From Desulfatirhabdium butyrativorans DSM 18734 (lineage in GTDB: Bacteria; Desulfobacterota; Desulfobacteria; Desulfobacterales; Desulfatirhabdiaceae), in assembly GCF_000429925.1 (NCBI RefSeq), contig NZ_KE386986.1:1-64000 (forward strand): a stretch of 64,000 nucleotides of DNA. Reading direction: 5' to 3'. Positions 4,911 to 60,599 of this stretch are shown in pieces (position 1 is the stretch's first letter; every line of letters begins with the position of its first letter). Under the pieces are notes generated by a model. The model was not told where the DNA came from. It worked only from the letters and a program-made list of their open reading frames with translations, and did no database searches. Made by a program: the position numbers and the translations under genes.

Positions 4911-5028
4911 TTTCCTGCGAAAGTCGAATATCAGAAGTCAGAAGTCAGAAGTCAGAAGAAAGCGGATGGTTCCCATTTTTTGTAGCTTGCTCTTGCGACT
5001 TTCATTCATCGGGGTGAAATCCCGGTTG
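4911..5028 (+). repeat. dispersed element with heptamer core, copy 1 (inverted copy at 18703-18830)
   Basis: It begins with TTTCCTGCGAAAG, contains four units of TCAGAAG (4931-4958), then AAGAAAGCGGATGG, a T-run, GCGACTTTCAT and GGGGTGAAATCCCGG. The reverse complement of 18703-18830 has the same parts in the same order. That makes it a mobile or duplicated unit of about 120 bp and not chance similarity. Confidence 0.85.
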
Positions 5029-8985: not shown

Positions 8986-9053
8986 AAGATGCCGGATCCC
9001 GGCTTTCGCCGGAGCGGCGGCATCAGCCGGATTTGCAATTGACACGTCAATTA

Positions 9054-9154
9054 ACCCATAACCCATAGCCCATAGCCTATAGCCTATTGCCTATTGCCCA
9101 TAACCCATAACCCATAGCCCATAACCCATAGCCTATTATTGCCTATTGCCCATC
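9054..9154 (+). repeat. heptanucleotide tandem array, 14 units
   Basis: Twelve units run in perfect 7-bp phase from 9054 to 9137 (mostly ACCCATA, GCCCATA and GCCTATT). A 3-bp insertion follows, then two more units. The array ends 6 bp before the ATG of the second cheD, so no normal ribosome-binding site is left there. Confidence 0.95.
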
Positions 9155-18702: not shown

Positions 18703-18830
18703 CAACCCGGGTTTCACCCCGGTTCATGAAAGTCGCAGGGACAAGCTATAAAAAAAAAGGGGAGCCATCCGCTTTCTTCTGACTCCTGACTTCTGACTCC
18801 TGACTCCTGATATTCGACTTTCGCAGGAAT
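18703..18830 (-). repeat. dispersed element with heptamer core, inverted copy 2
   Basis: Reverse-complement counterpart of 4911-5028. It contains five units of CTTCTGA/CTCCTGA (18776-18810) and ends in CTTTCGCAGGAAT (18818-18830). The unit count (five here, four there) and unit variants differ between the copies, which shows the core has changed length. Confidence 0.85.
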
Positions 18831-18872
18831 CGCTCATTAAGAGTGTGGCAACATGACAGTCGCCCTACGGTA

Positions 18873-18949
18873 CTGCCGACTGCCCACTGCCGACTGCCAC
18901 TGGTCACTGGCCACTGGTCACTGGCCACTGGTCACTGGCCGCTGGTCAC
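18873..18949 (+). repeat. heptanucleotide tandem array, 11 units
   Basis: Eleven 7-bp units in phase: four CTGCCxx units followed by alternating TGGTCAC and TGGCCAC. It is flanked on the right by CTTTCGTAGGAAT (18949-18961), the same motif that flanks the arrays at 4931 and 18776. Confidence 0.93.
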
Positions 18950-19119
18950 TTTCGTAGGAATTTCAGCCCCGGTGGCGGTTCGGTGCTCCGAATGGGGGAT
19001 TTCCGTTCAGGGTCGAGAGAAGCCCTATGGGAATTTTTCAGTTTTCATTTTGGGTTGTACCCTGCAGGATCGATTGGGGAAGAAATTGATATATCAACAT
19101 TGATGAAGGAGGAAACAAC

Positions 19120-30573: not shown

Positions 30574-32424
30574 TCAGATAAACGCCGCCTCCGGAATCTC
30601 CACTGCCGCCGGGCAGCCGTCGTTGATGGCTTCCATGCGGCCCAGGGTGATGGGGATCTCGGTTCGGATGAAATAATGGGCCGTTTGGATGATGCCGTAG
30701 GCTTGAGCCGCCGGTTTGGAGGTTTCTGCGGCACTTTTCCAAGCCTGCTCATCCGGTTTTCCGGTGATCTGCTCCAGTTTGGCGGCAGCGGTTTTGGCGC
30801 GCCACAGATGGAACCAGGCCAGCAGGATATCGCCGGTCACCATCAGAAAGGGGTGGGCGAAGGCGAATGCCGTCTGCACCTTTTCGCTCATGGCCGAAAG
30901 GCCCAGGTTCATGGCGGTTTCGGCAAAGCGGTTGACGGCCTTATCGACCCGCTCGCACAGGTCTGAAAGCCCGGCGTAGGCTTTGGCTTCCTGGGCGGTT
31001 TTCTGCATTTCGGAAATGAAGCGCATGAAGTAGGCGCCTTTTTTCATTCCGAGTTTTCGTCCCAAAAGGTCCATGGCCTGAATGCCGTTGGTTCCCTCGT
31101 AGATGCTCGTGATCTTGCAGTCCCGCAGCAATTGCTCTACCGGATACTCCCGGGTGTAGCCGTACCCGCCGTGCACCTGGACGGCCTGGGTGCAGACATC
31201 GAAGGCCCGCTCCGAGCAATAGGCCTTGACGACCGGGGTGAGCACCTCGATCATGCCGTTGTACAGATCGGCCAGTTGCGGATCGGTTTCGGACGCCTTG
31301 CGGTCGAAGCAGTACCCCACATAATAGATGAGGGTGCGCATGCCTTCGACGAAGGCCTTCATCGACAGGAGCATCCGCCGCACATCCGGATGGTGGACGA
31401 TGGTGACGGCAGGTGCCGCCGGATCCATCATGGACAGCAGGCTTCTTCCCTGAACCCGTTCCCGGGCGTATTGGGCCGCATGCCGGTAGGCGGCCGAGGC
31501 CATGGCGAAGGCTTGAAGCCCGACGCCGAGCCTTGCCTCGTTCATCAGATGAAACATCACCCGCATGCCCTTGTTCTTCTCGCCCAGCAGCACCCCACGG
31601 CACTTCCCCTTGGCGCCCAGACTCATGCTGCAGGTAGCGCTGCCGTGAATGCCCATTTTCTCTTCGATGCCGGTGCAGACGATGTCGTTTGGCTCACCGA
31701 GGCTGCCGTCCGGATTCACCCAGATCTTGGGGACGATGAAGAGGGATATGCCGGCCGTTCCGGCAGGTGCGCCTTCGATCCGGGCGAGAACCGGGTGGAT
31801 GATGTTTTCGGTGAGGTCCTGGTCGCCTGCGGTGATGAAGATCTTGTTACCGCTGATCGAATAGGTGCCGTCCGGATTGGGAACGGCTGTTGTGGTGAGC
31901 GCACCCACGTCGCTTCCGGCGTTGGGTTCGGTAAGGAGCATGGAACCGCCCCATTTTCCGGAATACATGTTCGGCAGGTAGAGCTTCTTTTGCTCTTCGG
32001 TGCCGAAGATTTCGATGAGCTTGCCTGCGCCGTGACACAGCCCCGGATACATGCAGAAGGAGCAGTTGGCTGCATTGAAGTATTCCGCAACTGCAAGACT
32101 CACGGATACTGGCATGCCCTGTCCGCCCACTTCCGGATCGTCTGCGAGCGTGATCCAGTCGCCTTCCCGGTATTTTTGAAACGCCCGGTGAAAGGCTTCG
32201 GGCACACGAACCGAACCATTTTCATATCGGCACCCCTGTTGGTCTCCGATGGCGTTGATCGGCAAAAGCTCCTTCAGGGCGAGGTTTCTGGCCTCGGTGA
32301 TCAGCATGTCGAGGGTTTTTCGGGTGATCCCATCGAATTTGAGGGTTTTCAGCAGGGTCTCGATGTCGAGGACATCGTAAAGAACGAATTCCATGTCTTT
32401 TCGGTCGGAAACATCTTGGGCCAT
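30574..32424 (-). CDS. long-type acyl-CoA dehydrogenase (about 600-residue family)
   Basis: A 616-residue flavoenzyme of the large acyl-CoA dehydrogenase subfamily (DmdC-like, with a C-terminal extension). It contains MLLTEPNAGSDVGALTT near 165-181 (FAD/substrate loop), QVHGGYGYTREYPVEQLLRD near 430 and the catalytic base in IYEGTNGIQAMDLLGR near 456. A helical extension of about 140 residues follows. The start at 32424 has AGGAGAAGG upstream; a 20-unit heptamer array begins 22 bp from the start codon. It is the last gene of the minus-strand catabolic cluster, separated from the others by 502 bp of repeats, so it may have its own promoter. Confidence 0.92.
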   Translation of the reverse strand: MAQDVSDRKDMEFVLYDVLDIETLLKTLKFDGITRKTLDMLITEARNLALKELLPINAIGDQQGCRYENGSVRVPEAFHRAFQKYREGDWITLADDPEVGGQGMPVSVSLAVAEYFNAANCSFCMYPGLCHGAGKLIEIFGTEEQKKLYLPNMYSGKWGGSMLLTEPNAGSDVGALTTTAVPNPDGTYSISGNKIFITAGDQDLTENIIHPVLARIEGAPAGTAGISLFIVPKIWVNPDGSLGEPNDIVCTGIEEKMGIHGSATCSMSLGAKGKCRGVLLGEKNKGMRVMFHLMNEARLGVGLQAFAMASAAYRHAAQYARERVQGRSLLSMMDPAAPAVTIVHHPDVRRMLLSMKAFVEGMRTLIYYVGYCFDRKASETDPQLADLYNGMIEVLTPVVKAYCSERAFDVCTQAVQVHGGYGYTREYPVEQLLRDCKITSIYEGTNGIQAMDLLGRKLGMKKGAYFMRFISEMQKTAQEAKAYAGLSDLCERVDKAVNRFAETAMNLGLSAMSEKVQTAFAFAHPFLMVTGDILLAWFHLWRAKTAAAKLEQITGKPDEQAWKSAAETSKPAAQAYGIIQTAHYFIRTEIPITLGRMEAINDGCPAAVEIPEAAFI

Positions 32425-32446
32425 TGGGTCCTTCTCCTGAATGTAT

Positions 32447-32586
32447 AATAGGTTATAGGCGATAGGCGATAGGCGATGGGCGATAGGCTATAGGCTATAG
32501 GTGATGGGTGATAGGTGATAGGTTATAGGCGATAGGCTATGGGCCATGGGCTATAGGTAATGGGTCGGTGGGCGGTGGCTGTAGGT
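32447..32586 (-). repeat. heptanucleotide tandem array, 20 units
   Basis: Twenty 7-bp units without any phase break (plus-strand variants GATAGGC, TATAGGC, GATAGGT, GATGGGT, CGGTGGG). Read on the minus strand the units are GCCTATC/ACCTATC, the same family as the opposite array at 32701. Confidence 0.95.
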
Positions 32587-32700
32587 CTTCGTGGCCAACT
32601 CGGGCGGTTCTGTCCATGGTGTTTTCGTCCAAATGAAGGATCGGGGTATGGAAGGTGACATCGTCAGCTTGTGCAGCCATCCTGTCCGCATTTCTCAATT

Positions 32701-32917
32701 CACCCATCACCCATCACCCATCACCCATCACCCATCACCCATCACCCATCACCCATCACCCATCACCCATCACCCATCACCCATCACCCATCACCCATCA
32801 CCCATTACCTATAGCCTATAGCCCATAGCCCATAGCCCATAGCCCATAGCCCATCGCCCATAGCCCATCGCCCATAGCCTATCGCCTATAGCCTATCACC
32901 TATTGCCTATCGCCTAT
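32701..32917 (+). repeat. heptanucleotide tandem array, 31 units
   Basis: Fifteen identical CACCCAT units (32701-32805) are followed by sixteen variants (TACCTAT, AGCCTAT, AGCCCAT, CGCCCAT, CGCCTAT, CACCTAT, TGCCTAT), all in 7-bp phase. It ends 9 bp from the stop codon of the next minus-strand gene. It is the longest array in the window; the homogeneous block suggests recent expansion. Confidence 0.97.
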
Positions 32918-32926
32918 CGCCCGTTT

Positions 32927-34084
32927 TCAAACGATAAATCGCGAAATAATCTCCTTCATGATTTCGGTCGTACCGCCGCCGATGGACAGGATGCGGTTGT
33001 CCCGATAGAGGCGCTCGACGAGGTAGCCGCGCATGTAGCCGTAGCCGCCGAAGATCTGGACGGCATCGTAGGTGACCTTGTCGCTGACCGAGCAGGCGAA
33101 GTTCTTGGCCATCGAGATTTCCTTGATCTGATCGATGCCTGCATCGATTTTGGCGGCTACGCGATAGGTGAATTCGCGGCTCACTTCGACGAGTGTGGCC
33201 ATATCTACGAGCTTGTGCCGGGTCACCTGGAAGGATTTCAGCGTCTTTCCGAAGGCTTTCCGTTCCTTCGTGTATTGGAGTGCCGCTTCATAGGCGAGCT
33301 GGGCTGTCATGTTGGCGATGACGGCGATCATCAGCCGCTCGGCCTGGAAATTCGACATGATGATGTAAAAGCCTTCATTTTCCTTTCCGATCAAATTTTC
33401 GACCGGTACCCGGCAGTCGTCGAAATACAGTTGGGCCGTGTCGCTCGCCCACCAGCCCATCTTCTTGAATTTTTCCGAAACGCTGAAGCCCGGACTGTCC
33501 GTGGGGATGACGAGCAGGCTGATGCCGCCATGTCCGGCATCTCCGGTTCGGACGGCACAGGTGATCTGATCGGCCCGACGGCCGCTCGTGATGAAGGTCT
33601 TGCTGCCGTTGACGATGTACTGATCGCCTTTTCGAACGGCTGTCGTCTCAAGATTGGCCACGTCGGACCCGCCACCCGGTTCGGTGATGGCAAGAGCCGC
33701 AATCTTTTCACCGGCCAATACCGGGGGAATGAAGCGCTGCTTCTGCTCTTCCGTGCCGTAGTTGACGATGGGCGGCAGGGCGATGTTGAGCGAGCCAAGC
33801 CCGGCAACAAACCCGCCGGAGCCTGCCCGCATCAACTCCTCCCAGACGGCGATTTGGAAGAAGATGTCCCCTGGGGTTCCGCCGTATTCTTCCGGAAAGC
33901 CCGTGCCGAGAATGCCGACATCCGCAGCCTTCCGATAGATTTCCCGCGGGATTTCCCCTGCCTCTTCCCACTCTTCGATAAAGGGGGTCACTTCCTTGCT
34001 GACGAATTCCCGAACCGATTTCCGGACAAGATCGTGGGTCTTTCCAAAATAGACCTGAAGCGGATTGCCGCCGGTCATGACCAT
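32927..34084 (-). CDS. acyl-CoA dehydrogenase (LCAD/IVD-like active site)
   Basis: A 385-residue FAD enzyme that oxidises an acyl-CoA to the 2-enoyl-CoA. It has LAITEPGGGSDVANLETTA near 123-141, TFITSGRRAD and the C-terminal QIFGGYGYMRGYLVERLYRD. The usual C-terminal catalytic Glu position reads IGGGTTEIM, with Gly instead of Glu. A Glu-Arg in NFQAERLMIA near residue 240 fits the alternative base of long-chain and isovaleryl-CoA dehydrogenases. It follows the DUF35-MaoC gene by 12 bp, so they are co-transcribed. Confidence 0.92.
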   Translation of the reverse strand: MVMTGGNPLQVYFGKTHDLVRKSVREFVSKEVTPFIEEWEEAGEIPREIYRKAADVGILGTGFPEEYGGTPGDIFFQIAVWEELMRAGSGGFVAGLGSLNIALPPIVNYGTEEQKQRFIPPVLAGEKIAALAITEPGGGSDVANLETTAVRKGDQYIVNGSKTFITSGRRADQITCAVRTGDAGHGGISLLVIPTDSPGFSVSEKFKKMGWWASDTAQLYFDDCRVPVENLIGKENEGFYIIMSNFQAERLMIAVIANMTAQLAYEAALQYTKERKAFGKTLKSFQVTRHKLVDMATLVEVSREFTYRVAAKIDAGIDQIKEISMAKNFACSVSDKVTYDAVQIFGGYGYMRGYLVERLYRDNRILSIGGGTTEIMKEIISRFIV

Positions 34085-34096
34085 GGCGTATCCTCC

Positions 34097-34990
34097 TTAT
34101 GAGAGCGGTGTGGGCGGAATCACCAGGGCCGCACCTTCCGCCACGAGTTTTCCGTGCTGGTTCGTCCAGGTGAGGGCCATTCGGACCCAGCGCTTGGCCT
34201 CGATCTTTTCGACGACTTCCGCCCTGGCGGTGATCGTGTCTCCGAAATAGGTAGGCGCCCGGAAACGGGTGGTGATCTCGAGGGCCACGGTGCCCAGCCC
34301 CGGCATTTTCATGCCGAGAACCGGTGCGATCAGGCACTGCGGCAGCGCACCGTGGGCGATCCGGGTGCCGAAGGGCGTCTTCTTGGCAAATTCCTCATTC
34401 AGGTGCATCGGGTTGAAATCCCCCGAAATCCCGGCGAACAGATACACGTCGGTTTCGGTGATGGTCTTGGTGAAGGTGGCCGCCATGCCGATTTCAAGCT
34501 CGTCGTAGGTGTAGCCGATTTCGATCTTTTGACTTTCGTCCACCAGAAAATGGTCGATGTCCCGGATGGTGGATGTGGTCTTTTTGGCGAAAACGGCCTT
34601 CACCCGGAGCCCGGTTTTCATCTGGCTGATGGGAACGCCCTTGACGATATGGGGAAAGGGCGTATCGGCTCCGTCGAGCAGGATCATGCCGAGGATATAC
34701 GGCGGTTTCACCGGCTGATGGGGCTCTTCGTAGCGGATGACCGTGAATCCGGTGACCACTCCGGTGTCCTTGAGCTCGACCCAGCTTTGGGTGAGATCGG
34801 CAAAGCAACGCTCACAGGTCGATCGGGGCGGCACGAAGACCTTGTTGCAGGTGTTGCAGCGCACCCCGAGGATTTTCTTCGAATCCCGGAGCGAGATGAT
34901 GAACTTGCTGCCGGTTCTTCCGGCGAAATATTGGTAGGGAAGGGAGAGTTTTCCTTCCACGATGAAGCTGTCGGCGTATGTGGTGTCCAT
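34097..34990 (-). CDS. DUF35-MaoC fusion protein (enoyl-CoA hydratase-like)
   Basis: A 297-residue fusion. The N-terminal half is a DUF35 module: a rubredoxin-like zinc ribbon (CNTC near 45-48 and CERC near 59-62) plus an OB-fold that binds acyl-CoA partners. The C-terminal half (about 160-290) is a MaoC hot-dog domain with the hydratase motif AGISGDFNPMHLNEEFAKKT, whose Asp and His are catalytic in R-specific hydratases, and GTRIAHGAL. In actinobacterial ChsH2 the same two domains occur in the opposite order. It sits between the ligase fusion and an acyl-CoA dehydrogenase, consistent with hydration of their product. Confidence 0.88.
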   Translation of the reverse strand: MDTTYADSFIVEGKLSLPYQYFAGRTGSKFIISLRDSKKILGVRCNTCNKVFVPPRSTCERCFADLTQSWVELKDTGVVTGFTVIRYEEPHQPVKPPYILGMILLDGADTPFPHIVKGVPISQMKTGLRVKAVFAKKTTSTIRDIDHFLVDESQKIEIGYTYDELEIGMAATFTKTITETDVYLFAGISGDFNPMHLNEEFAKKTPFGTRIAHGALPQCLIAPVLGMKMPGLGTVALEITTRFRAPTYFGDTITARAEVVEKIEAKRWVRMALTWTNQHGKLVAEGAALVIPPTPLS

Positions 34991-35010: not shown

Positions 35011-37359
35011 CTATTCAATCACCTCGAAATACCGAATGTCGTTGATCGTCCCTGTCCGCTTTTCGTTCCACACCGGCCGCACCCGCACACCTGCCTTGGC
35101 CTTGTCGATGTCCGAGGGCTTGAGCTCGTGCCACAGGGTTTCGTGGCCTTTGCAGCCGTCAAGCAGAAAGTGGGCGGCGATATACGGTGTTTCCCGGATT
35201 TCGCCGGTCAGGGGATCGGGGCTGGCGTAATAGGTGATATCCGGGATGGTGATGATTCCTTCGGGGCCGACCTCCACCCATTCGGTGGCGCGCACCTTGC
35301 ACTCGGCGCAGACCTCCCGGGGCGGCAACTGCAGCCTGCCGCACTGCGGGCATTTGTTGGCGAGGATTTTCTTGTCGATCAGGGCCTTCAGGAATTTTCC
35401 CATCACCGGCCCTGTGGCGAACCGCTGGGCGATGCTGGGGACCTGTTTGAGAACGATGAGCTCCTCCCGCACTTCTTCGGCTTCCCCCGCTGCGCTGGGC
35501 GGAGTGTATTTCTTGAAGAATTTGGTGGCCTTGGTCAGCAGACCCAGATCTCCTTCGACCTTGAGCCTACCGGAGGTGAAGGCGGTCATGCCGTCGAGCT
35601 TTCCGAGGGTGAGATCGATCCAGTCCTTTGCCGAAACGGTGGTCGTGACGTTGGGGGTATGGAGCCCTTCGAGGACCTTGACCTTGCCGTCTGCCACACA
35701 CACGGTCCACTCGCCGCCGCCGCTTCCGGTGATGATGTAGCCATAATTGGCCGTGATGCCCTGAACCCCTTCGGGATTGACCCGGGCTTCCATCGTTCCG
35801 AAAATGTCCGCTACCGTCACTTCGGGCCCCTTGGCCTTTTTGGGCCTTGGGGTCAGGCCCCATTTGCGCAGCTCCTTCTTCAAGACCTTTCCGATCGGGG
35901 ACCTGGGGAAGTCATCTTCCAGAATTTCGACGTACTTGGGAACCTTGAATTTGGCAAGATGCTGCTTGCAGTATTCGATGACTTCTTCTTCCGTGAGGCT
36001 GTCATCGAGGGCCTTCACGAACACCTTGACTTCCTCGCCCATGGTCGGGTCGGGCACGCCAACGGTTGCGGCCTCCTGGATCTTGGGGTGGGTGGCGAGC
36101 AGGTTGTCGATTTCCTTGGGGTAGATGTTTTCTCCACCCCGGATGATCATGTCCTTGATCCGATCGACGATAAAAATGTATCCGTCCTCGTCCTTGTAGC
36201 CGACATCTCCGGTGTGCAGAAAACCGTTTACGATGGTGGCAGCCGTCTCCTCGGGCCGGTTGAAATATCCCTTCATGACGACATCGCCCGAAATGACGAT
36301 TTCACCGGCCTGCCCAGGCGGCAGCTCCCGGCCTTCCTCATCCACGATCAGCACTTGCTGGCCGGGAAGGGCAAGCCCGATGGATCCGACCTTGCGAACT
36401 CCGTCCCGCGGGTTGAGGGTGCTGACACAGGTGGCTTCCGTCAGGCCGTAGCCTTCGACAATGGGGATGTTGAAGGTTTCCTGAAATTTGGTGAAGGTCT
36501 CCTGGGTGAGCGGAGCTGCGCCGCAGATCCCGAATTTGAGCGAGCTCAAATCGTATTTCTGACGGCTCGGATCACTCAGCAGAATCTGATAGACGGCCGG
36601 AACGGCGGACCAGAAATTGACCTTGTACCGGTCGACCACTTCCCAGAATTCCGATGCGCTGAAGGCCCGGCGCAGCACCACCGTGATGCCCGCCCCCAGA
36701 CTGAAGGTGCAGGTGAGCATGGCGTTTACGTGAAAGAGCGGCAGAAAGCAGAGCACGGTCTGACCGGCTTCGAGGTGCAGCGCCTCCGTCACCCCTTCGA
36801 CGTCTGCGATGACGTTTCGGTGAGACAGGAGAACGCCTTTGGGATTTCCCGTCGTCCCGGATGTATAGAAAATGTAGGCGGTGTCGTTTGCTTCGCAGGG
36901 GCAGGTGACCGGAGTGTCATCCGGGTCTTCGAGAAGCGATGCAAAGGGGATGTGGCCGGGCTGCGGATCCTTTCCGACCTCGATCACGGTCTTCAGATGC
37001 GGACAGCGATCCCGGATCTCCTTCAGGATCGGCACATACTGGTCTTCGATGATGAGCCCAACCCCCTGAGAGTCGTTCAAGAGGTATTCGATTTCCGGGC
37101 CTTTCCACCAGCCGTTGATGGGGCCCGCCACGGCGCCGATCTTCTGGATGGCGAAATAGCTGATCAGGGTTTCGGGGCTGTTCTGAACCAGCACATGGAT
37201 GAAATCCCCGCGCTGGAAGCCGAGTGTGGCCAGTTTGTTGGCCAGGATGTCGACCCGCCTGCCGAAATCCGCAAAGGTGAGCGTTTCCTCGTAAAACCGC
37301 AGATAGGGCGCAGACCCATACCGTTGTACGGCCTGGTCCAGATACTGTCCAAGGTTCAT
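35011..37359 (-). CDS. acyl-CoA ligase-SCP2-DUF35 triple fusion
   Basis: A 782-residue protein in three parts. Residues about 1-510 form an AMP-dependent acyl-CoA ligase (FYTSGTTGNPKGVLLSH, GYGLTEAT, GGENIYPKEID, IGKVLKKELRKWG). Residues about 520-640 resemble a sterol-carrier SCP2 domain (GSGGGEWTVCVADGKVKV, TLGKLDGMTAFTSGRLKVEG). Residues about 650-782 are DUF35 with a zinc ribbon (CPQCGRLQLPPREVCAEC) and an OB-fold. The ATG at 37359 has GGAGG upstream with good spacing; the longer frame from 37437 does not. The fusion would activate a hydrophobic acid and pass the CoA ester on to the DUF35-linked thiolase-fold proteins encoded next to it. Confidence 0.88.
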   Translation of the reverse strand: MNLGQYLDQAVQRYGSAPYLRFYEETLTFADFGRRVDILANKLATLGFQRGDFIHVLVQNSPETLISYFAIQKIGAVAGPINGWWKGPEIEYLLNDSQGVGLIIEDQYVPILKEIRDRCPHLKTVIEVGKDPQPGHIPFASLLEDPDDTPVTCPCEANDTAYIFYTSGTTGNPKGVLLSHRNVIADVEGVTEALHLEAGQTVLCFLPLFHVNAMLTCTFSLGAGITVVLRRAFSASEFWEVVDRYKVNFWSAVPAVYQILLSDPSRQKYDLSSLKFGICGAAPLTQETFTKFQETFNIPIVEGYGLTEATCVSTLNPRDGVRKVGSIGLALPGQQVLIVDEEGRELPPGQAGEIVISGDVVMKGYFNRPEETAATIVNGFLHTGDVGYKDEDGYIFIVDRIKDMIIRGGENIYPKEIDNLLATHPKIQEAATVGVPDPTMGEEVKVFVKALDDSLTEEEVIEYCKQHLAKFKVPKYVEILEDDFPRSPIGKVLKKELRKWGLTPRPKKAKGPEVTVADIFGTMEARVNPEGVQGITANYGYIITGSGGGEWTVCVADGKVKVLEGLHTPNVTTTVSAKDWIDLTLGKLDGMTAFTSGRLKVEGDLGLLTKATKFFKKYTPPSAAGEAEEVREELIVLKQVPSIAQRFATGPVMGKFLKALIDKKILANKCPQCGRLQLPPREVCAECKVRATEWVEVGPEGIITIPDITYYASPDPLTGEIRETPYIAAHFLLDGCKGHETLWHELKPSDIDKAKAGVRVRPVWNEKRTGTINDIRYFEVIE

Positions 37360-59164: not shown

Positions 59165-59190
59165 TGCCATTTCATCAGTGACAGGTTGTT

Positions 59191-59225
59191 GGGCAGTGGG
59201 CAGTCGGCAGTCGGCTGTGGGCAGT
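59191..59225 (+). repeat. heptanucleotide tandem array, 5 units
   Basis: Units GGGCAGT, GGGCAGT, CGGCAGT, CGGCTGT and GGGCAGT in phase. The reverse complement (ACTGCCC/ACTGCCG) matches the first four units of the array at 18873. Confidence 0.9.
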
Positions 59226-59269
59226 GGATTTTTGGCCTATTTTCATCTCCGGGTGTGGTGACCCCTGCC

Positions 59270-60571: not shown

Positions 60572-60599
60572 TTACTGATTACTGATTACTGATTACTGA
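60572..60599 (+). repeat. heptanucleotide tandem array, 4 units
   Basis: Four perfect TTACTGA units lie 6 bp after the DUF554 stop and 38 bp before hemL. Confidence 0.93.

Follow-up and report, generated by a model that had tools for sequence, protein, structure and literature searches.

Orientation of seven-base tandem arrays relative to gene edges, seen from an inverted array pair in Desulfatirhabdium butyrativorans

RESULTS

Two arrays of one heptamer family lie in opposite orientation between two acyl-CoA dehydrogenase genes

The window analyzed here—a stretch of 64,000 bp from the start of contig NZ_KE386986.1 of Desulfatirhabdium butyrativorans DSM 18734—holds an operon-like gene cluster on the minus strand that is catabolic in character, with acyl-CoA dehydrogenases, a CoA ligase, and thiolases among the neighbors (Table 1). 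Two of the acyl-CoA dehydrogenase genes are separated by a gap of 502 bp, and this gap is the site of two arrays of a degenerate heptamer. The preliminary description had already recognized a pair of arrays from one unit family in opposite orientation, placed in a catabolic cluster upstream of a 616-residue acyl-CoA dehydrogenase, and our unit calls bear this out, as they do the 31 units of array 2 (next to which we add one degenerate unit), the run of 15 identical CACCCAT units, and the 9 bp (32918–32926) between the 5′ end of the G-rich strand of array 2 and the stop codon of the 385-aa gene. Other measurements needed correction: (i) array 1 has 17 units and not 20, the unit being no longer kept past position 32566; (ii) the island between the arrays measures 134 bp instead of 114 bp; and (iii) array 1 stands 23 bp, not 22 bp, from the start codon of the 616-aa gene. 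This start codon and the AGGAG of the leader, which we take to be the ribosome-binding site of the gene, are both outside array 1. GGG tracts number 23 in array 2 (minus strand) and 5 in array 1, and a G-quadruplex is here a potential structure only. Four-unit matches to the ATRGGYN pattern occur 51 times in the window, compared to none in each of 100 dinucleotide shuffles.

Table 1. Genes and repeat features of the array locus (window coordinates; for the arrays, the strand is that of the G-rich sequence)
Feature	Coordinates	Strand	Remarks
616-aa acyl-CoA dehydrogenase	30574–32424	−	extra C-terminal domain (PF12806)
Leader, array 1 to start codon of the 616-aa gene, 23 bp	32425–32447	−	carries AGGAG at 32434–32438 (− strand)
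Array 1, 17 units of ATRGGYN	32448–32566	+	5′ end of G-rich strand 23 bp from start codon of the 616-aa gene
Island between the arrays, 134 bp	32567–32700		no Rfam match at E ≤ 1
Array 2, 31 perfect units (NRCCYAT on + strand)	32701–32917	−	G-rich strand is the operon sense strand
Run of 15 identical CACCCAT units	32701–32805	+	gene-distal end of array 2
One further degenerate unit, CGCCCGT	32918–32924	+	adjoins array 2
385-aa acyl-CoA dehydrogenase	32927–34084	−	upstream in operon direction
Protein with MaoC and OB/zinc-ribbon domains	34097–34990	−	
CoA ligase fused to SCP2 and zinc-ribbon parts	35011–37359	−	

The ATRGGYN family is spread over the genome and recurs in the phylum

The pair belongs to a family that is found throughout the draft genome (4.48 Mb in 73 contigs), with 489 four-unit matches that divide evenly between the strands (245 to 244); the reversed pattern has no match in this genome. 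In a set of relatives, 3 of the 38 genomes (source included) have matches, namely, the source, G034 with 45, and G005 with 1. An even draw of the phylum gave matches in 38 of 395 genomes, again counting the source, and in 28 of 245 genera, with the highest count in the source. The reversed pattern was present in nine genomes of this draw (for example, 68 times in G213), which indicates that other heptamer families exist in the phylum. That the arrays could be an artifact of assembly is hardly credible: a 73-contig draft and long identical runs, which are hard for short reads, would invite such an error, but the arrays mix variant units and have unique flanks, array edges fall on gene edges, and many independent genomes of the phylum sample carry such arrays.

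None of the 30 ATRGGYN arrays analyzed in the source genome lies inside an ORF. Their sizes range from 3 to 31 units, with exactly 4 units in 3 arrays, and most of them stand singly. By hand count, seven gaps hold an ATRGGYN array together with a second heptamer array, which is of the same family in three gaps and of a different family in four. The three same-family inverted pairs have 134, 144, and 197 bp between their arrays and arms of 17/31, 13/6, and 30/15 units. We rejected a mobile or REP/MITE-type inverted repeat as the identity of the pair because there is no defined length and most arrays are single.

Nothing ties the array pair to the 616-aa gene, since 36 loci with a relative of this gene (390 kb) hold no ATRGGYN array. 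At 3 of these 36 loci (L054, L055, and L058), the gene immediately upstream of the 616-aa relative encodes a product with 36 to 37% identity to the 385-aa enzyme; several loci could not contribute to this count because their upstream sequence is too short to tell.

The G-rich strand of heptamer arrays points away from the nearest gene edge

We studied array orientation in a sample of 1.59 Mb that includes the window and covers 35% of the genome, with 225 of the 489 matches; contigs 1 to 6 were taken in order, and contigs 8, 23, and 67 were chosen as known array carriers. Gene edges came from a purpose-written, small codon-based gene finder and not from curated annotation. In 28 of the 30 ATRGGYN arrays, the G-rich strand has its 5′ end closer than its 3′ end to an ORF edge (medians of 19.5 and 268.5 bp, respectively); the 2 exceptions span a very short gap completely, with both ends in contact with an ORF. 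The arrays are also anchored close to genes, with 21 of the 30 within 30 bp of an ORF edge, compared to 5.6 expected by random placement in their own gaps (5,000 draws, maximum of 13 arrays).

This orientation rule extends to heptamers of every family. Tandem Repeats Finder, after removal of overlaps, yielded 133 period-7 arrays, from which we dropped 3 inside an ORF and 2 without a neighbor (leaving 128) and then 3 with equal G and C (leaving 125). The rule is obeyed by 108 of these 125 arrays, with 17 exceptions, and it holds in gaps of all types, that is, start-start (16/20), start-stop (81/92), and stop-stop (11/13). Of the arrays that lie no more than 40 bp from an ORF edge, 65 follow the rule and 3 break it, with 43 to 2 at stops and 22 to 1 at starts. 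It persists when the ATRGGY families are left out (86/102) and among families lacking GG (22/26), and it is seen in individual families such as GGGCAGT (25/28), CAGGAGT (18/23), AAGTCAG (15/18), and AAGTTTT (6/7). As a control, non-heptamer tandem repeats do not follow the rule (39/71, from 73 repeats outside ORFs of which 2 without a neighbor were dropped).

Several general causes of this polarity could be set aside. A comparable base skew beside genes is not seen in 475 gaps without heptamer arrays, in which the outward G skew is at most 0.07 and is −0.16 in the first 20 bp before starts. Replication strand was rejected given the balance of array strands (245 to 244), and the G-quadruplex was rejected as a general cause since the families without GG obey the rule.

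Selection at the RNA level alone is an explanation that we regard as possible but doubtful. It would set the polarity through two effects, in that G-strand units, rich in AGG/GGG, ATG, or AGGAG-like words, would give false translation starts in a 5′ leader, where the C-rich orientation alone would be tolerated, and G-rich RNA after a stop would be a possible 3′-end barrier. The orientation at starts fits, with units such as ATGGGCT and CAGGAGT carrying ATG- or AGGAG-like words, and G-rich repeats of Xanthomonas and Nostoc are described as lying downstream of stops and antisense upstream of starts (PMC4692102). However, two separate pressures are needed to account for a rule that is equally strong within 40 bp of stops and of starts, and the GG-less families, which cannot form G-quadruplexes and contain few such words, obey it as well.

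Given the rule, an inverted pair is what results when an array sits at each edge of a gap. The plain reading of the locus is that the two arrays are independent of each other and that their inversion follows from the orientation rule.

The rule holds less strictly in other genomes of the phylum

Stretches from other genomes were chosen around known matches. In G034, 16 of 22 arrays obey the rule and 6 do not (23 arrays, 1 without a neighbor dropped); it is weaker there because gaps are short and many are filled by arrays. In seven further genomes of the phylum taken together, 30 of 40 arrays obey it and 10 do not (43 arrays, with 1 inside an ORF and 2 without a neighbor dropped; sign test, 0.001), sign-test values being optimistic in this work since arrays in one gap are not independent. 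The single array of G005 opposes the rule (402 bp against 40 bp).

Arrays of the source genome reach stop codons and stay clear of starts

At stops, arrays reach or enter the ORF. Twelve ATRGGYN arrays lie within 10 bp of a stop codon, and 8 of them adjoin a TAG in unit phase, compared to a background TAG share of 203 in 1,308 stops (binomial p of about 9e−5), which indicates that the array supplies the stop codon. In 4 ORFs of these 8, the last codons too are array sequence. At starts, the arrays of the source genome end at least 12 bp away.

As an individual case in the source genome, the ORF at C5:92781-94148, which we read as HslU, ends in LSRFIL, and the TAG that immediately follows is part of the neighboring array. 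In G121, an array (L176, 7428-7476) runs into the start codon and leaves no room for a ribosome-binding site, and the leaders of its congeners are unrelated. Among three congeners of the G121 lineage, coding blocks are 84 to 92% identical, whereas the gaps show no relatedness until the start or stop codon is reached.

Composition and unit number along the arrays

The identical run at the gene-distal end of array 2 had suggested that arrays grow at this end as a general rule. We rejected this generalization, as the identity between neighboring units is flat along arrays (0.29, 0.29, and 0.30 by thirds) and the identical run is a single case. For this run itself, the recent expansion put forward in the preliminary description is plausible from the sameness of the units, whose number may be an assembly estimate given the draft state of the genome; the comparison set of 37 relatives includes no congeneric species.

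A gradient appears at the Y position, where the share of T increases by thirds away from the gene (0.17, 0.29, and 0.56) and the trend is positive in 15 of 17 usable arrays (sign test p of 0.001 before allowing for this being one of five positions or letters tried). The corresponding values in G034 are 0.20, 0.18, and 0.55.

Unit number differs between related genomes at one locus. G256 and G056 share a homologous locus (92% identical) with an inverted pair that is separated by 9 bp each from a start and a stop; one array consists of 8 units in one of the two species and of 9 in the other, with the extra unit in the gene-distal part. In a third species, G158, the gap homologous to this locus has no such array.

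The predicted hairpin is stable; a special device is not supported

The transcript of the pair had been proposed to form a very long stem. The predicted fold of the operon-strand RNA of the gap (−279.3 kcal/mol) is far more stable than that of 100 dinucleotide shuffles (mean of −177.6, z of −15.4), and the best ungapped arms extend over 118 nt at 81% complementarity. Since shuffling destroys the repeats, this z-score shows only that opposite arrays of the same family can pair. A better control is the comparison of pairing within one gap to pairing with arrays from different gaps. The pair at 32448–32917 scores 0.924, slightly above the 0.81 to 0.90 of 4 comparable arrays; the pair on C5 scores 0.952, inside the range of 21 others (0.81 to 1.00); and the pair on C6 scores 0.914 and is exceeded by 4 of 6 others. 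An extra match within the gap is absent in two of the three same-family pairs. A stem kept by coevolution, or otherwise purpose-built, is not supported, with a small probability left for the pair at 32448–32917. Of the earlier proposal, the predicted folding into a stem thus stands, whereas the pair as a special device is not supported, because the family is genome-wide and the orientation rule alone yields inverted pairs.

We consider it improbable that a functional RNA hairpin, cut by RNase III or looping out the 502-bp gap, sets the ratio of the two dehydrogenases with array length as the tuning element. The stability of the predicted fold and the length of its arms are what such a device would need, the stem has its base beside the stop codon of the upstream gene and the leader of the downstream gene, and the pair is the most complementary of the five comparisons for array 1. 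On the other hand, the remaining two inverted pairs are matched or bettered by arrays from elsewhere, the inverted geometry is already given by the general rule, and relatives of the 616-aa gene are found without ATRGGYN arrays (0/36 loci, 390 kb).

Other candidate functions were rejected as well. An intrinsic terminator was rejected because a stem followed by a T run is absent from the transcribed minus strand: a simple pattern scan found no terminator-like site on the operon strand and a single match on the plus strand only (32602–32615), where shuffles average 0.4. A known structured RNA was rejected because no Rfam family matched at E ≤ 1. The locus does not resemble a phase-variable contingency locus in its genes, as its neighbors are catabolic and not surface-structure or adaptation genes.

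DISCUSSION

Likeness to known heptamer repeats

The polar G-rich heptamers of Xanthomonas (GGGNATC) and Nostoc [GGGGA(C/T)T] are the closest known kind, being seven-base, intergenic, and genome-wide, with variable unit number and occasional inverted pairs (PMC4692102). They share with our arrays a placement near starts on the noncoding strand and near stops on the coding strand (PMC4692102), and the pair described here is likewise antisense within 50 bp before a start (23 bp) and sense within 50 bp after a stop (9 bp). Those repeats show a preference for four units, and 90% of them are found between the same ORFs when two species are compared (PMC4692102). Differences are that (i) the unit here, ATRGGYN, is neither GGGNATC nor GGGGAYT and has one free position and two at which transitions occur; (ii) there is no preference for four units here (3/30); and (iii) the rule is found here in GG-less families too.

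The TAACTGA repeats of Beggiatoaceae are likewise intergenic heptamers of fixed orientation, mostly directly upstream of starts (PMC4679880). Unlike ATRGGYN, they have one nearly invariant unit in short sets (2 to 6 in BOGUAY), and no comparable stop-side rule is reported in the available part of that work (PMC4679880). A family of similar appearance, AAGTCAG, is present in the source genome. The heptanucleotide elements of Geobacter metallireducens are also tandem heptamer families, some of them as pairs of sites on opposite strands, but they consist of four or five units of other sequences and are proposed regulator sites (PMC2700814). Chloroflexus aurantiacus offers another single heptamer scattered through a bacterial genome, with a different unit, (GATAGRA)n, whose orientation is not taken up in the available part of that work (PMC6749651), whereas the tandem repeats of Borgs have longer, perfect, A-rich units in archaeal extrachromosomal elements (PMC9879509). 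The literature searched, which was available in part, yielded neither a description of ATRGGYN arrays from these bacteria nor one of a polarity that is independent of the repeat family.

How the polarity may arise

We think it probable that the locus represents one gap with both edges arrayed, each array having been founded separately and having grown by a slippage-type process up to the last dispensable element. The two arrays would thus have independent origins and would have lengthened by gain and loss of units, as slippage has been proposed to do in heptamers (PMC4679880, citing Mrazek 2007). Each would extend to the last element that its gene can spare, that is, the stop codon on one side and the ribosome-binding region on the other. 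The polarity would stem from a directional bias of growth or repair that places new G-rich units toward the 3′ end of the strand leaving the gene, and the folding of the pair into a long imperfect stem in the mRNA would be a by-product that RNase III could cut.

Any cause of the polarity must treat both ends of a gene alike, and for this reason replication strand and transcription direction fail as causes. A directional process at DNA 3′ ends combined with selection at gene edges would account for polarity, anchoring, and inverted pairs together, although the flat identity of neighboring units gives no general sign of growth at one end. As a putative cause, we favor slippage-type growth that is directional and is held in check by selection at gene edges. 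A further-reaching version of this idea, which we consider unlikely, is that a directional, sequence-tolerant process adds G-biased seven-base units to the outward 3′ strand at gene edges and trims the spacer down to the start or stop codon; inverted pairs would then be gaps rebuilt from both sides.

The same geometry recalls telomeres, with a G strand that runs outward 5′ to 3′ and inverted pairs in the position of fused telomeres. It is conceivable, at very low probability, that a telomerase-like reverse transcriptase adds templated G-rich repeats to DNA 3′ ends that are subsequently joined; the R and Y positions of the unit would fit wobble on one RNA template, and the DRT10 system is described as making tandem-repeat cDNA (PMC12632851). 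However, the sole RVT_1 match in the genome, which is 97.3% complete, is a 206-aa N-terminal fragment in a partial ORF, which we read as a remnant of a group II intron, and the several unrelated unit families that obey the rule would need several templates. A DRT10-like system was rejected because a complete dedicated reverse transcriptase is absent from this nearly complete genome.

The array pair itself is ordinary, and the family-independent polarity is the part worth following. Polarity was previously reported for single G-quadruplex-forming units and is now seen in GG-less families as well, which implies that quadruplexes are not its general cause. The rule can be checked in any annotated genome, as the orientation of a heptamer array reveals the nearest gene edge whatever the unit, and it bears on the reasons for the abundance of seven-base repeats among bacteria and on the turnover of intergenic DNA.

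Other repeats noted

The window holds a third ATRGGYN array of 12 units (9053–9136) in the usual orientation, 24 bp from a start codon. Further heptamer arrays are located at 4931–4958, 18776–18950, 59190–59227, and 60572–60599; the units of the other heptamer arrays in the window are TCAGAAG, CTGACTC, CACTGGT, TGGGCAG, and TTACTGA, and they resemble the published TAACTGA and MTYCTGA repeats. Gaps elsewhere in the genome (for example, C67:156092-156524 and C3:9162-9519) are also littered with dispersed palindromic elements such as GTAGGGGCGACCGGCCGGTCGCCCCTAC beside heptamer arrays. In a bacterium associated with an Olavius worm, the closest relative of the 616-aa gene has an eight-base quasi-repeat (GTTTGCCC/GTTCGCCC; L070, 7974-8029) on its downstream side.
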